Source: Kofleriaceae bacterium (GTDB lineage Bacteria; Myxococcota_A; Polyangia; Haliangiales; Haliangiaceae). From it: DNA of 64,000 bases. Within the stretch, counting starts at the first letter, position 1, and the number at the start of each line of letters is the position of its first letter. The translations under genes and the position numbers were made by a program. Below the pieces are notes generated by a model that saw only the letters and a program-made list of their open reading frames with translations, ran no database searches and was not told the origin of the DNA. The stretch is taken from contig JANXOP010000302.1 of the NCBI GenBank assembly GCA_025357755.1, positions 1 to 64,000 on the forward strand, given 5' to 3'. Positions 58,930 through 62,612 of this stretch are shown here, piece by piece.

Positions 58930-59018
58930 AAGGTGGCCCCAGACACCCACTATCTCCGCTACCGTTGCTCCCTTCCGGGCCTGGCGGGGTTCACAGCATT
59001 CGCGTCATCCGGGACCAT
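58930..59018 (-). ncRNA. ffs: Small (4.5S) signal recognition particle RNA
   Basis: On the minus strand the conserved tetraloop-and-bulge region is plain: GGCCCGGAAGGGAGCAACGG, which pairs inside a long hairpin. Outer arms GGTCCCGG and GTCTGGGGCC close it. The RNA is the short bacterial form lacking an Alu domain. It binds Ffh and targets membrane proteins to the translocon. It lies 33 bases after tRNA-Ser(GGA), with a terminator downstream, so it is probably the last gene of the tRNA operon. Exact ends are estimated. Confidence 0.92.
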
Positions 59019-59050
59019 AAAACACGGTCAGGCAAGTGGGTTAGCAGCGG

Positions 59051-59135
59051 CGGAGGGAGAGGGATTCGAACCCTCGGTACCTTACGATACACACGATTTC
59101 CAATCGTGCACCTTCGGCCACTCGGTCATCCCTCC
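59051..59135 (-). tRNA. tRNA-Ser(GGA)
   Basis: The 85-nt gene folds as a class II tRNA. Acceptor GGAGGGA pairs with TCCCTCC, the T arm has GGGTTCGAATCCC, the anticodon loop reads TTGGAAA, and the long variable arm is present. It reads UCC and UCU. Discriminator is G. The 3' CCA is not encoded. Fourth of five tRNAs... position in the operon is second last, before the SRP RNA. Confidence 0.96.
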
Positions 59136-59161
59136 CGAGACTACTTCAGCAGGGCAAATTG

Positions 59162-59244
59162 CGGAGGAGGAGGGATTTGAACCCCCGTTGCTTGCGCAAA
59201 TCTGATTTCGAATCAGACACCATCGGCCACTCGGACACTCCTCC
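59162..59244 (-). tRNA. tRNA-Ser(CGA)
   Basis: The 83-nt gene has acceptor GGAGGAG/CTCCTCC, anticodon stem TCTGA/TCAGA with loop TTCGAAA, a long variable arm and T arm GGGGTTCAAATCCC. It reads UCG. It begins four bases after the tadA stop, so it must be cut out of the tadA mRNA. Confidence 0.96.
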
Positions 59245-59248
59245 AAAC

Positions 59249-59713
59249 TTAAGAACCATAGCTCGGTCCTTTTCGCAGCTCTGCGAAGAACTGCTTCAAC
59301 AACTCTGCGCATTCTACCGCGCGAACCTCACCGAGCACCTCGATCCGATGATTGAGGCGGGGGTCGGTCGGAATCTCGTACAGCGACTGCACCGCGCCGG
59401 CTTTCGGATTCAGACATCCGAACACGAGCCGCTTGATCCGAGCGTTGACGAGCGCACCAGCGCACATCGGGCAGGGCTCTTGGGTCACGTATAACGTGCC
59501 TTCGATCCTCCAGTGCTTGGTGGTTTGCGATGCATCTCGAAGAGCGACGACCTCGGCGTGCGCCGTGGGATCGTGATCGAGCTCGCGACGATTACGGCCC
59601 CGCCCAATCACCACTCCATCGAGGACAATGATGGCTCCGACCGGCACATCCCCCTGTGCCGAGGCGGCGCGCGCTTCCTCGATTGCGTGGGTCATCCATT
59701 CTTCATCAGTCAT
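59249..59713 (-). CDS. tadA: TadA, tRNA(Arg) adenosine-34 deaminase
   Basis: TadA makes inosine at position 34 of tRNA-Arg(ACG), so that one tRNA reads CGU, CGC and CGA. The 154-aa protein has the zinc/catalytic HAEV (His52, Glu54) and PCPMCAGA (Cys81, Cys84), and GDVPVGAIIV. It is 17 bases from the 3' end of the tRNA-Arg(ACG) gene, on the same strand, and sits between tRNA genes, so it is made from a transcript that also carries its own substrate. Its 5' leader after tRNA processing would be very short (about 17 nt, AT-rich, no clear ribosome site). Confidence 0.95.
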   Translation of the reverse strand: MTDEEWMTHAIEEARAASAQGDVPVGAIIVLDGVVIGRGRNRRELDHDPTAHAEVVALRDASQTTKHWRIEGTLYVTQEPCPMCAGALVNARIKRLVFGCLNPKAGAVQSLYEIPTDPRLNHRIEVLGEVRAVECAELLKQFFAELRKGPSYGS

Positions 59714-59730
59714 AACAAACAAAATTCGGG

Positions 59731-59803
59731 TGGTACCGACAGGGCTCGAACCTGTAACCCCCGGCTTCGTAGGCCGGTGCTCTATCCATTGAGCTACGGA
59801 ACC
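59731..59803 (-). tRNA. tRNA-Arg(ACG)
   Basis: The 73-nt gene has acceptor GGTTCCG/CGGTACC, D arm GCTCAATGGATAGAGC, anticodon loop CTACGAA and T arm ACAGGTTCGAGCCCTGT. Discriminator is A. A34 is the TadA substrate. The 3' CCA is not encoded. It directly precedes tadA. Confidence 0.96.
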
Positions 59804-59834
59804 AAAAACTACTACCCGCTTACGTAACTACTGG

Positions 59835-59925: not shown

Positions 59926-59980
59926 AAAATGGGCCCAACAGGGCATCGGACAACTGGTTTGCCAAGAAAACGTAGTTGGC

Positions 59981-60017
59981 GCGGGACGCCTTCTTCCGAG
60001 GAAGAACGACGTCCCGC
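59981..60017. other. Long nested hairpin between two tRNA-Ser genes
   Basis: GCGGGACG (59981-59988) pairs with CGTCCCGC (60010-60017), and inside it TTCTTCC (59991-59997) pairs with GGAAGAA, with small asymmetric bulges. It lies in the 133-base spacer 59926-60058. No U-run follows on either strand, so it is more likely a processing or stability structure than a terminator. Confidence 0.6.
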
Positions 60018-60058
60018 CCATGACCACTTGCGTGACACTATTCGATTATCAGACCGGG

Positions 60059-60141
60059 CGGAGGAGGAGGGATTCGAACCCCCGGAGCTTGCGCTCGGCG
60101 GTTTTCAAGACCGCTGCCTTCGACCACTCGGCCACTCCTCC
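60059..60141 (-). tRNA. tRNA-Ser(TGA)
   Basis: The 83-nt gene has acceptor GGAGGAG/CTCCTCC, anticodon loop CTTGAAA on a GCGGT/ACCGC stem, a long variable arm and T arm GGGGGTTCGAATCCC. It reads UCA (and wobble UCN). It is the first gene of the tRNA operon, about 20-25 bases after the predicted transcription start. Confidence 0.96.
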
Positions 60142-60166
60142 AGGCAGACCAAGAGGCAGGGGCGTA

Positions 60167-60194
60167 TTTATAGGGATCGGATTTGGGTTGTAAA
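60167..60194 (-). promoter_or_regulatory. Sigma-70-like promoter of the tRNA-Ser/tadA/SRP RNA operon
   Basis: On the minus strand TTTACA (60194-60189) and TATAAA (60172-60167) are separated by 16 bases; each matches the -35 and -10 consensus in five of six positions. It lies between the stop of the lipoprotein gene (60211) and tRNA-Ser(TGA) (60141), so it gives the stable RNAs their own strong start, independent of serS. Confidence 0.75.
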
Positions 60195-60210
60195 GGAGGA
60201 ACTAGGTCTT

Positions 60211-61335
60211 TCAGCCATGGGGGCAGCGGATCGACCAACGTGTCGACCGTGTCGAGCGTTCAGCCCACTCTGGCGGCGATAGGTCGAGCCGGTCCTCCAC
60301 GCGCTGGAGGTGGAGCGAGTCTCCGAGCGCCGCCGGGCTGCGCAGGATCGAGTACGGCGGGGCGTCGAGCTCGAGCTCGGTCGGGCAGCGGCCCTGACGG
60401 ACGATTTCGGTATGGATCCGGAGCGCGGCGAGCCGGGCGACGTCGGTCCCGATCGACCGGGCCGAGTCGGCGACGAGCAGGCGTGCGCGGTGTTCCGGCA
60501 GCTGGGTCAGGAGCTCGCTGCGTAGCGCGCCCCGATCCTCCCCACGGCGCAACCGCAGCGCTAGCTGCTTGGAGTCGAGCCGAGGAGACACAGGAGCCCG
60601 GCGCGCGAGCTGCGTCGCGCAGATGGCGAGCGGCGCGGTCGGTGGGCACTCCGCGGCGTCCGCGATCGCCCAGGCAGCGCCGAGCGCGAACATGACGCCG
60701 GCTTCATCCCGGGGATCGCCGAAGTGGTCACCGCGGTACGGTCGCGACTCGAGCTCTTCGCGGGCACCTTCGAGCGCCTCGGCGTAGGGTGGCACGCTCG
60801 CGATCAGGGGGTCGAGCATCTCGCCGAACGCCGCCGCTTGGTCGGGGGTGAGCTTCGCGACGATCGGATCGAGCGTCGCGCCAACGATCGACCTCACTTC
60901 GCTCGCGCTCGGCGCGAGCCAGCGGGGGACGTGACCGCGACCGAGGTCTTGATACAGCTGCAAGGTCCGAGCGCCGAGCGTGACCGCGTGCATCGGATCG
61001 GTCGAGGCGAGCTCGATGATGCGATGCTCGAGCAGCTCCATCGCTCGGAGTGTGCGCTGCGGATTCTCGGGCGGTGCGCGCACGCCGATCTGATACGGAG
61101 AGCAGCCAGGCGGATGCGCGGCGACCAACGTCTCGAGGGCCTTCGTCTCGAGCGTGGCGCCCTCGATCGCGGCGACGAGGTCGGGCGAGCAATGCTGCTT
61201 GGCGTTCGCGGCGAGCCGCATCGCGAGATCTTTTTGGTACGCGGCGAGCTCGTCGTCGCTGAACAACCGCGGCGCCGGCTTCGGCTGGCACGCGACCATC
61301 GCGCAGGCCCACGCGACGAGCCGCGCGCGCTTCAC
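60211..61335 (-). CDS. Lipoprotein, unknown
   Basis: From GTG 61335 (overlapping the serS stop, GTGA) the 374-aa product has a lipoprotein signal ([16 protein letters not shown], lipid Cys 17 in MVAC). The mature protein is helical ([31 protein letters not shown]) with scattered Cys ([30 protein letters not shown]). No family recognised. Coupling to serS is by position; a functional link to serylation is not implied. Confidence 0.75.
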
Positions 61336-62612
61336 TTCGAGATCAGCTCTTGCCCGTTCATGTAGCGCCGCAGCGCTTCGGGCACCACGACGCTGCCATC
61401 CGCCTGCTGATAGTTCTCGAGGATCGCGACGATCGTCCGACCGATCGCGATCCCCGAGCCGTTCAGCGTATGGAGCGGGCGCGGCTTCTCGCCCGCGACG
61501 GGGCGGTAGCGAATCTTCGCGCGCCGCGCCTGAAAGTCCTCGAAGTTCGAGCACGACGAGATCTCGCGGAAGGTCTCCTGGCCCGGCAGCCAGACTTCGA
61601 GATCGTAGGTCTTCGCTGCACCGAAGCCCATGTCGCCCGTGCACAGCGTGACGACGCGATAGTGCAGGCCGAGACCTTGGAGCACGCGCTCGGCATCGCC
61701 GCGTAGCGCTTCGAGCTCGGCGTAGCTGGTCTCGGGCGCGACGAGCTTGACGAGCTCGACCTTGTCGAACTGGTGCTGGCGGATCAGGCCGCGGGTGTCC
61801 TTGCCGGCCGCGCCGGCCTCGGCGCGAAAGCATGCCGAGTACGCGCAGTAGTGCTTCGGCAACTGATCGGGGTCGAGGATCTCGTCGGCGTGGAGGTTCG
61901 TGACTTGAACCTCCGCGGTCGGTGACAGGAACAGATCATTCTCCGCGACATGGTCCGGATTCGGCGGCATGTGCAGCTTGAACAGATCGTCCTCGAATTT
62001 CGGGAGCTGCCCGGTGCCACGCAGCGAACGCCGCGCGACGATCGCAGGCGGCCACACTTCGCTGTAGCCGTGCGAGGTGTGAAGATCGAGCATGTAGTTG
62101 AGTAGCGCGCGCGTCAGCTTCGAGGCCCCGTTGCGCAGCACCGTGAAGCGTGCGCCGGTGATCTTGGCTCCGGCATTGAAATCGAGGATGCCGAGCTGCT
62201 CGCCGACCTCCCAGTGCGGCTTCGGCTGGAACGTAAAGCTCGGCTTGGTTCCCCACGTGTGGAGCACCAGGTTGTCCGCTTCGGAGGCGCCGTCGGGCAC
62301 GCTCGCATGCGGGGCATTCGGAATGTCGAGGAGCTTGGCTTCACTCTGGCCTTCGAGCAGCGTGAGCTGCGCTTCGCCCTCTTTGATCCGGGTCGAAAGC
62401 GCCTTGAGCTCGTCGCGCATCGTGGCGAACTCGGGCGACTTCTTGTCGGCCTTCGCCATGCCCTCGTTCGCCGCGTTGCGCTGCTTGCGGAAGCCGTCGA
62501 GCTCGCCCTGGAGTTTCCGGCGCTGTTCGTCGAGACTCTTCCAGGCGCCCACGACCTTGGCCACTTCGCCGCCGCGGCGCAGCACGTCATCCATTCGGGT
62601 CGGATCGAGCAT
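61332..62612 (-). CDS. serS: Seryl-tRNA synthetase
   Basis: SerRS charges all serine tRNAs (and tRNA-Sec if present). The 426-aa class II enzyme has the N-terminal tRNA-binding coiled coil (about 30-110, [20 protein letters not shown]), motif 2 in [21 protein letters not shown] and motif 3 in [21 protein letters not shown] 62612 follows AAGG by about six bases. The coiled coil contacts the long variable arm common to the four tRNA-Ser genes downstream. Divergent from the sigma gene. Confidence 0.97.

Follow-up and report, generated by a model that had tools for sequence, protein, structure and literature searches.

Conserved order of a tRNA-Ser, tadA, and signal recognition particle RNA gene block in a Kofleriaceae genome and in other bacterial phyla

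Why are all four tRNA-Ser isoacceptor genes of a bacterium found side by side? The question is raised by a 64,000-nt stretch of the draft genome of a Kofleriaceae bacterium of the phylum Myxococcota (assembly GCA_025357755.1, contig JANXOP010000302.1, positions 1 to 64,000; hereafter, the window), in which tRNA-Ser genes with the anticodons TGA, GCT, CGA, and GGA lie on the minus strand together with serS, encoding seryl-tRNA synthetase, and ffs, the gene for the signal recognition particle (SRP) RNA. The order of tRNA genes is usually thought to change rapidly. A preliminary description had proposed a serine module, and ARAGORN, Rfam, and Pfam searches confirmed all the components that it named. 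The locus is not purely a serine module, however: tRNA-Arg(ACG) and tadA (encoding tRNA adenosine(34) deaminase), both of which had been missed, sit within the cluster, a 375-codon open reading frame (ORF) separates serS from the tRNA genes, and dnaX, ebfC, and recR had not been included. In total, eleven elements are arranged on the same strand in the order serS–tRNA-Ser(TGA)–tRNA-Ser(GCT)–tRNA-Arg(ACG)–tadA–tRNA-Ser(CGA)–tRNA-Ser(GGA)–ffs–dnaX–ebfC–recR. Since this order recurs in distant bacteria, the block appears to be a very old arrangement and not a unit for local control of serine. Most probably, the window holds a well-kept copy of an ancient bacterial block in which the stretch from tRNA-Ser(TGA) to ffs forms one unit, with its own promoter and terminator and separate from serS, that is processed into tRNAs and SRP RNA.

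In the phylum of the window, 112 genomes were searched and SRP RNA was found in 105; 79 of these 105 loci were read, several being ended by contig edges. The six-element order from tRNA-Ser(TGA) to tRNA-Ser(GGA) is present in 21 of the 79 loci; a different order in all relatives, which the preliminary description named as a sign of an accidental cluster, was thus not observed. All eleven elements occur in order in 5 of the 79, in 7 of 20 picked Bacillota loci (each with an extra tRNA-Arg(CCT) gene before tadA), in 1 of 20 picked Desulfobacterota loci, and in 1 of 80 named loci (L146), a tally that tests order and not adjacency, with some inner gaps of several kb. Because the hidden Markov model used to find SRP RNA in relatives (a simple motif missed 54 of the 79) may let some genes escape, counts for orders with ffs are minimum values. 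At one locus (L114 of genome G090), tRNA-Arg(ACG) was not found between tRNA-Ser(GCT) and tadA, and the remaining order is kept.

The succession of tadA and tRNA-Ser(CGA) is present in six phyla. Among the 44 Myxococcota loci bearing tadA (35 of the 79 lack it), tRNA-Ser(CGA) is the first tRNA gene within 1.5 kb after tadA in 43; the same holds for 27 of 30 loci in the Bacillota set, 20 of 30 in the Desulfobacterota-type set, 15 of 28 in the Actinomycetota set, 10 of 25 in the Planctomycetota set, and 7 of 24 in the Acidobacteriota set. Flanks in the six-phylum samples are about 1.5 kb long, and linkage is visible only within that range. Each set is named by the phylum of its centre genome, which is a Clostridium for the Bacillota. 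The Bacillota and Desulfobacterota-type sets consist of the 30 best-scoring loci each, among 37 or 39 genomes matched and 39 or 41 searched. In the sets of 24, 28, 25, and 21 loci, which were searched with a stricter E-value (1e-25) than both 30-locus sets, all matched genomes were read (24/24, 28/28, 25/25, and 21/21), the numbers searched being 30, 31, 30, and 31. The scan of named genomes used a TadA alignment.

In a tree of concatenated DnaX, RecR, and TadA sequences (plus SerS for 16 loci), comprising 53 of 70 loci tried, all 17 Bacillota loci fall into one group (support 0.997), which also takes in two other loci; of the 12 Desulfobacterota loci, 11 group at 0.976. The window falls among the Myxococcota and not inside the Bacillota. 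Entry of the block into the Myxococcota from the Clostridia was rejected, as the tree gives no sign of it within the sampled loci. Vertical inheritance of an old block that has been broken in many lineages is the simplest reading, and from it we infer common descent of the order.

The set of tRNA-Ser genes in the window appears to be the full set of the genome. The five tRNA genes identified by ARAGORN in the whole window all lie on the minus strand at 59049–60142, and the four tRNA-Ser genes have Rfam scores of 50.9–61.3 bits. The assembly (8.6 Mb in 450 contigs, 89.86% complete) yielded 46 tRNA matches; ARAGORN, run on loci covering all 46, identified 45 distinct tRNAs, among which the only tRNA-Ser genes are the four clustered ones. 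The four tRNA-Leu genes of this genome are spread over four contigs. A tRNA-Ser covariance model gave five matches, of which the four with at least 86 bits are all in the cluster and the fifth is weaker. Thus, neither ARAGORN nor covariance matches of at least 86 bits revealed a tRNA-Ser gene outside the cluster in this draft genome, although a fifth, unseen gene is possible at this level of completeness and fragmentation.

Among the covariance matches listed for 38 Myxococcota genomes (those of at least 85 bits were used, and two lower ones, in G028 and G076, were dropped), exactly four tRNA-Ser matches were found in 36; one is listed for G079 and three for G026. In 17 of the 38 genomes, from ten families, a single cluster no longer than 10 kb contains all four. 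Together with an order that reaches other phyla, this supports the earlier view of the clustering as unusual and more than an accident. In family f3 (G051, G089, G102, and G111), the tRNA-Ser genes are largely dispersed, as a pair and two singles or as four singles, and no other block genes were found beside SRP RNA in the loci read.

Table 1. Features of the block and its surroundings in the window.
Feature	Position	Strand	Evidence or remark
serS, seryl-tRNA synthetase	61332..62612	-	ORF; Pfam tRNA-synt_2b 1.8e-37 and Seryl_tRNA_N 2.5e-14
Lipoprotein-like ORF (by eye), 375 codons	60211..61335	-	Sequence and ORF frame
Promoter-like TTTACA-16-TATAAA, putatively of the tRNA unit	60167..60194	-	10/12 consensus positions
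tRNA-Ser(TGA)	60056..60142	-	ARAGORN, Rfam
tRNA-Ser(GCT)	59832..59925	-	ARAGORN, Rfam
tRNA-Arg(ACG)	59728..59804	-	ARAGORN, Rfam; absent from the preliminary description
tadA, tRNA adenosine(34) deaminase, 154 residues	59249..59713	-	NCBIfam NF008113, 167.1 bits (cut-off 150)
tRNA-Ser(CGA)	59161..59244	-	ARAGORN, Rfam
tRNA-Ser(GGA)	59049..59135	-	ARAGORN, Rfam
SRP RNA (ffs), bacterial small type	58924..59021	-	Rfam, 57.7 bits (cut-off 40)
Terminator-like hairpin, 12 pairs then T-rich tail	58884..58913	-	Directly 3' of SRP RNA
dnaX, clamp loader tau/gamma	55877..57880	-	Pfam
ebfC (ybaB)	55546..55884	-	TIGR00103, 100.3 bits
recR	54857..55447	-	TIGR00615, 249.8 bits

The SRP RNA match is the single one in its genome (Table 1). 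Between it and dnaX lies an ORF (57943–58839) that has tandem KAPDV-type and AGSAAP-type repeats by eye and gave no match in a Pfam search. Divergent from serS, at 62643–63296, is a gene for an extracytoplasmic function (ECF)-type sigma factor. The GTG start of the lipoprotein-like ORF overlaps the serS stop codon (GTGA).

HAE and PCxxC are the zinc-site motifs of TadA. They are present in the protein of the window, which also scores above the curated cut-off, and residues H52-A53-E54, P80-C81, and C84 are invariant in 19 sequences. The usual expected substrate of TadA is tRNA-Arg(ACG), whereas tRNA-Ser(CGA) is not known to be one. The enzyme of the window is expected to edit A34 of the neighbouring tRNA-Arg(ACG), which is also given as the TadA substrate in Bacillus subtilis (PMC10454642).

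A promoter-like site ends 25 nt before tRNA-Ser(TGA), downstream of serS and of the ORF overlapping its stop. When the 75-nt stretch before this gene was shuffled 2000 times by mononucleotides, 9 shuffles reached its score. In two close relatives (L041 and L042), TTTACA-16-TATACT is found at 23 and 27 nt before tRNA-Ser(TGA), at nearly the same place, and two loci of the Bacillota set (L373 and L364) contain TTGACA-TATACT, with spacers of 18 and 17, between serS and tRNA-Ser(TGA). A stricter promoter scan of the region returned no site; it accepts only second hexamers that end in T, and that of the window ends in A. Because promoter-like sites lie between serS and tRNA-Ser(TGA) in the window and in relatives, the tRNA genes are probably transcribed independently of serS; a joint promoter for serS and the tRNA genes was rejected, and the common control suggested in the preliminary description is not supported. 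The stretch from tRNA-Ser(TGA) to ffs has promoter-like and terminator-like sites at its ends, and terminator-like sites are not in excess in the region (3 found versus 3.3 expected). A long hairpin at 59926–60055, in the gap between tRNA-Ser(TGA) and tRNA-Ser(GCT), has a predicted energy of −52.5 kcal/mol (no shuffled control) and no long T run directly after it.

In the lineage of the window, the transcript would most likely start from a vegetative promoter at 60194–60167 and end at the terminator at 58913–58884, after ffs, with serS remaining outside the unit. From this primary transcript, cutting by RNase P and 3' processing enzymes would release the SRP RNA and five tRNAs (four tRNA-Ser and one tRNA-Arg). 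The tadA message would be the remainder between two tRNAs, with its start codon 14 nt after tRNA-Arg(ACG) and its stop codon 4 nt before tRNA-Ser(CGA).

Several observations weigh against a single, anciently inherited unit. The Bacillota and Desulfobacterota loci of the eleven-gene tally were picked, mostly for showing linkage, and in none of the 21 Pseudomonadota loci is tRNA-Ser(CGA) the first tRNA gene within 1.5 kb after tadA. The Myxococcota clade of the tree has a support of 0.02 and includes one Desulfobacterota-type locus. The block is split in many genomes: in 21 of the 38 Myxococcota genomes, the four tRNA-Ser genes are not all together (nine carry them as two pairs, five as three plus one), and four strong listed matches in one stretch were seen, by eye, in just two of 23 named genomes, G130 and G131. 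Only 13 of 26 stretches before tRNA-Ser(TGA), the window included, score at least 9/12 and the other 13 score lower, so clear signs of a separate promoter are missing at some loci. The hairpin between tRNA-Ser(TGA) and tRNA-Ser(GCT) in the window might mark an end or processing site of the transcript or might be a former terminator. Finally, 9 of 26 tRNA-Arg(ACG)–tadA junctions contain a terminator-like hairpin, and there are therefore two units at such loci, a single unit being at most a trait of some lineages; at other tRNA junctions, such hairpins were found in 3/23, 1/24, 2/44, and 4/44 cases. The corresponding gap in the window, which was counted among the 26, is 14 nt long and hairpin-free. 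Because of this difference, the block appears to consist of two modules (Ser-Ser-Arg and tadA-Ser-Ser-ffs-dnaX), fused in the lineage of the window. At the SRP RNA locus, six of the nine genomes with two pairs (G009, G024, G029, G048, G053, and G063) retain tadA-Ser(CGA)-Ser(GGA), consistent with a break at the Arg–tadA boundary; the other three, of family f16, have neither tadA nor tRNA-Ser there.

The junction of tadA and tRNA-Ser(CGA) allows another explanation, an ancient either-or switch that would go back to an ancestor shared by Bacillota and Myxococcota. Maturation of tRNA-Ser(CGA) by RNase P would remove or expose the end of the tadA message and so decide its survival, a ribosome finishing tadA would mask the 5' end of the tRNA, and the amount of editing enzyme would follow tRNA processing. 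We regard such a switch as unlikely. The junctions of tadA with a following tRNA-Ser form 157 rows from seven sets (153 distinct), in which the next tRNA is Ser(CGA) in 148, Ser(GGA) in 8, and Ser(TGA) in 1; tRNA 5' ends were moved by one base where ARAGORN appeared to add or drop one. In favour of the switch, the distance between the tadA stop and this tRNA is at most 10 nt in 54 rows (zero in 4 and negative in 28); it exceeds 30 nt in 74, which argues against the switch, as does the window, where the stop lies outside the tRNA. Of the 28 overlaps, 3 concern a tRNA other than Ser(CGA), namely Ser(GGA) or Ser(TGA), and 25, in six phyla, were left after removal of two repeats (L298 and L321) and of L311, whose frame is lost far upstream.

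At three loci of the Bacillota set (L234, L241, and L247), the first bases of the tRNA complete the FF...RR end of TadA, and T12-G13-A14 of the tRNA serves as the stop codon. The last G of a TAG stop is tRNA base 1 at L090, L104, and L227, and at L042, which has the order of the window, the stop codon is tRNA bases 8–10 and tadA starts 2 nt after tRNA-Arg. The TadA frame ends within tRNA-Ser(CGA) at L042 (9542–10139), L234, L241, L247, L184, and L214, and at several of these loci the TadA protein alignment extends into tRNA bases. Candidate tadA starts lie 1–2 nt after tRNA-Arg(ACG) at L041, L042, and L055, so that no room is left for a ribosome-binding site outside the tRNA. Where the stop lies inside the tRNA, one transcript would be unable to yield both the full tadA message and the RNase P-cut tRNA.

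Tight packing alone also predicts occasional overlap. In a control that counts any ORF of at least 130 codons, the stop lies 0–10 nt before the tRNA in 29 of 162 Ser(CGA) cases, versus 0 of 70 for non-Ser tRNAs and 1 of 77 for other tRNA-Ser heading their array. For overlaps, which are inflated by spurious ORFs, the contrast is weaker (30/162 versus 5/70 and 10/77), and only the 0–10 nt class gives a clean one.

A precedent for an either-or junction is selB-selC of Alphaproteobacteria and others, for which such logic was proposed and which was termed the first nested tRNA gene in a bacterial ORF (Mukai 2021, PMC8124441). Both cases have a tRNA gene overlapping the 3' end of the ORF for a protein acting on tRNA, with some stops inside the tRNA, but tRNA-Sec is the ligand of SelB, whereas tRNA-Ser(CGA) is not known to be a substrate of TadA; the tadA case extends to six phyla, and the pair in the window is 4 nt apart. 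By analogy, the tadA–tRNA-Ser overlap would be a further, phylogenetically broad case of a nested tRNA.

The proposal of a serine-decoding control module, in which serS and all tRNA-Ser genes stand together for joint regulation of the enzyme and its tRNAs, is very improbable. It draws on loci where serS is directly before tRNA-Ser(TGA), namely L081, L086, L108, and L119 (57–102 nt; gaps taken from alignment ends) and L359, L360, L363, L364, L365, L369, L371, and L373 (64–302 nt), on the gap of L081, which has no good promoter-like site (6/12), and on the T-box leader of L373 (10373–10623), which immediately precedes serS, the first gene of the block. To the promoter-like sites described above, which tell against joint control, are added those before tRNA-Ser(TGA) in L086 and L108. 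Moreover, two of four close serS–tRNA-Ser(TGA) pairs have a terminator-like hairpin between them, a separate ORF occupies this position in the window, and tRNA-Arg(ACG), tadA, SRP RNA, and dnaX have non-serine functions. The serS genes of Bacillota are among the T-box controlled genes (PMC4342826). In the window, too, serS heads the block, but there is no T-box (RF00230) match at the gathering score, and the tRNAs of L373 have their own promoter-like site despite the T-box of serS.

Duplication from one ancestor had also been suggested for the isoacceptors. Among 36 tRNA-Ser genes from nine genomes, the closest sequence carries the same anticodon in 34 cases, and mean identity is higher between genomes for one anticodon (0.816) than within a genome for different anticodons (0.723). 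The isoacceptors are therefore not local duplicates, and recent duplication was rejected. Judged from these comparisons, the isoacceptor split predates the divergence of the sampled genomes.

Chance or hitch-hiking, that is, rarely rearranged neighbours of essential genes without shared expression or repeated independent assembly, would agree with the fact that many lineages have lost or split the block but is the least credible explanation, given that up to eleven genes share order and strand in distant phyla and that the same tRNA adjoins tadA in six.

Part of the order is already published: the yaaJ(tadA)-scr-dnaX-yaaK-recR order of B. subtilis, where genes located after yaaJ are stated to be transcribed from promoters of their own (PMC10454642). 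That region and the window have tadA, SRP RNA, dnaX, ebfC, and recR in the same order; in the window, tadA is flanked by four tRNA-Ser genes and tRNA-Arg(ACG), tRNA-Ser neighbours not being named in the part of that account consulted. Like known translation-gene clusters, the block preserves long-range order between distant bacteria, and it centres on tRNA genes instead of genes of the transcription and translation machinery. Literature searches by title and abstract, with most subscription journals outside their scope, found no description of the tRNA-bearing block or of a tadA–tRNA-Ser overlap. New here is a tadA stop codon that often abuts or lies inside tRNA-Ser in relatives and is 4 nt away in the window.

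Five tRNAs of the same identity and order around tadA in Myxococcota and Clostridia would rank among the deepest tRNA neighbourhoods in bacteria, and the block is a starting point for studying an ancestral operon. As tadA so often abuts or overlaps a tRNA-Ser gene, it becomes testable whether message and tRNA can come from the same transcript and whether the enzyme is regulated by tRNA processing.

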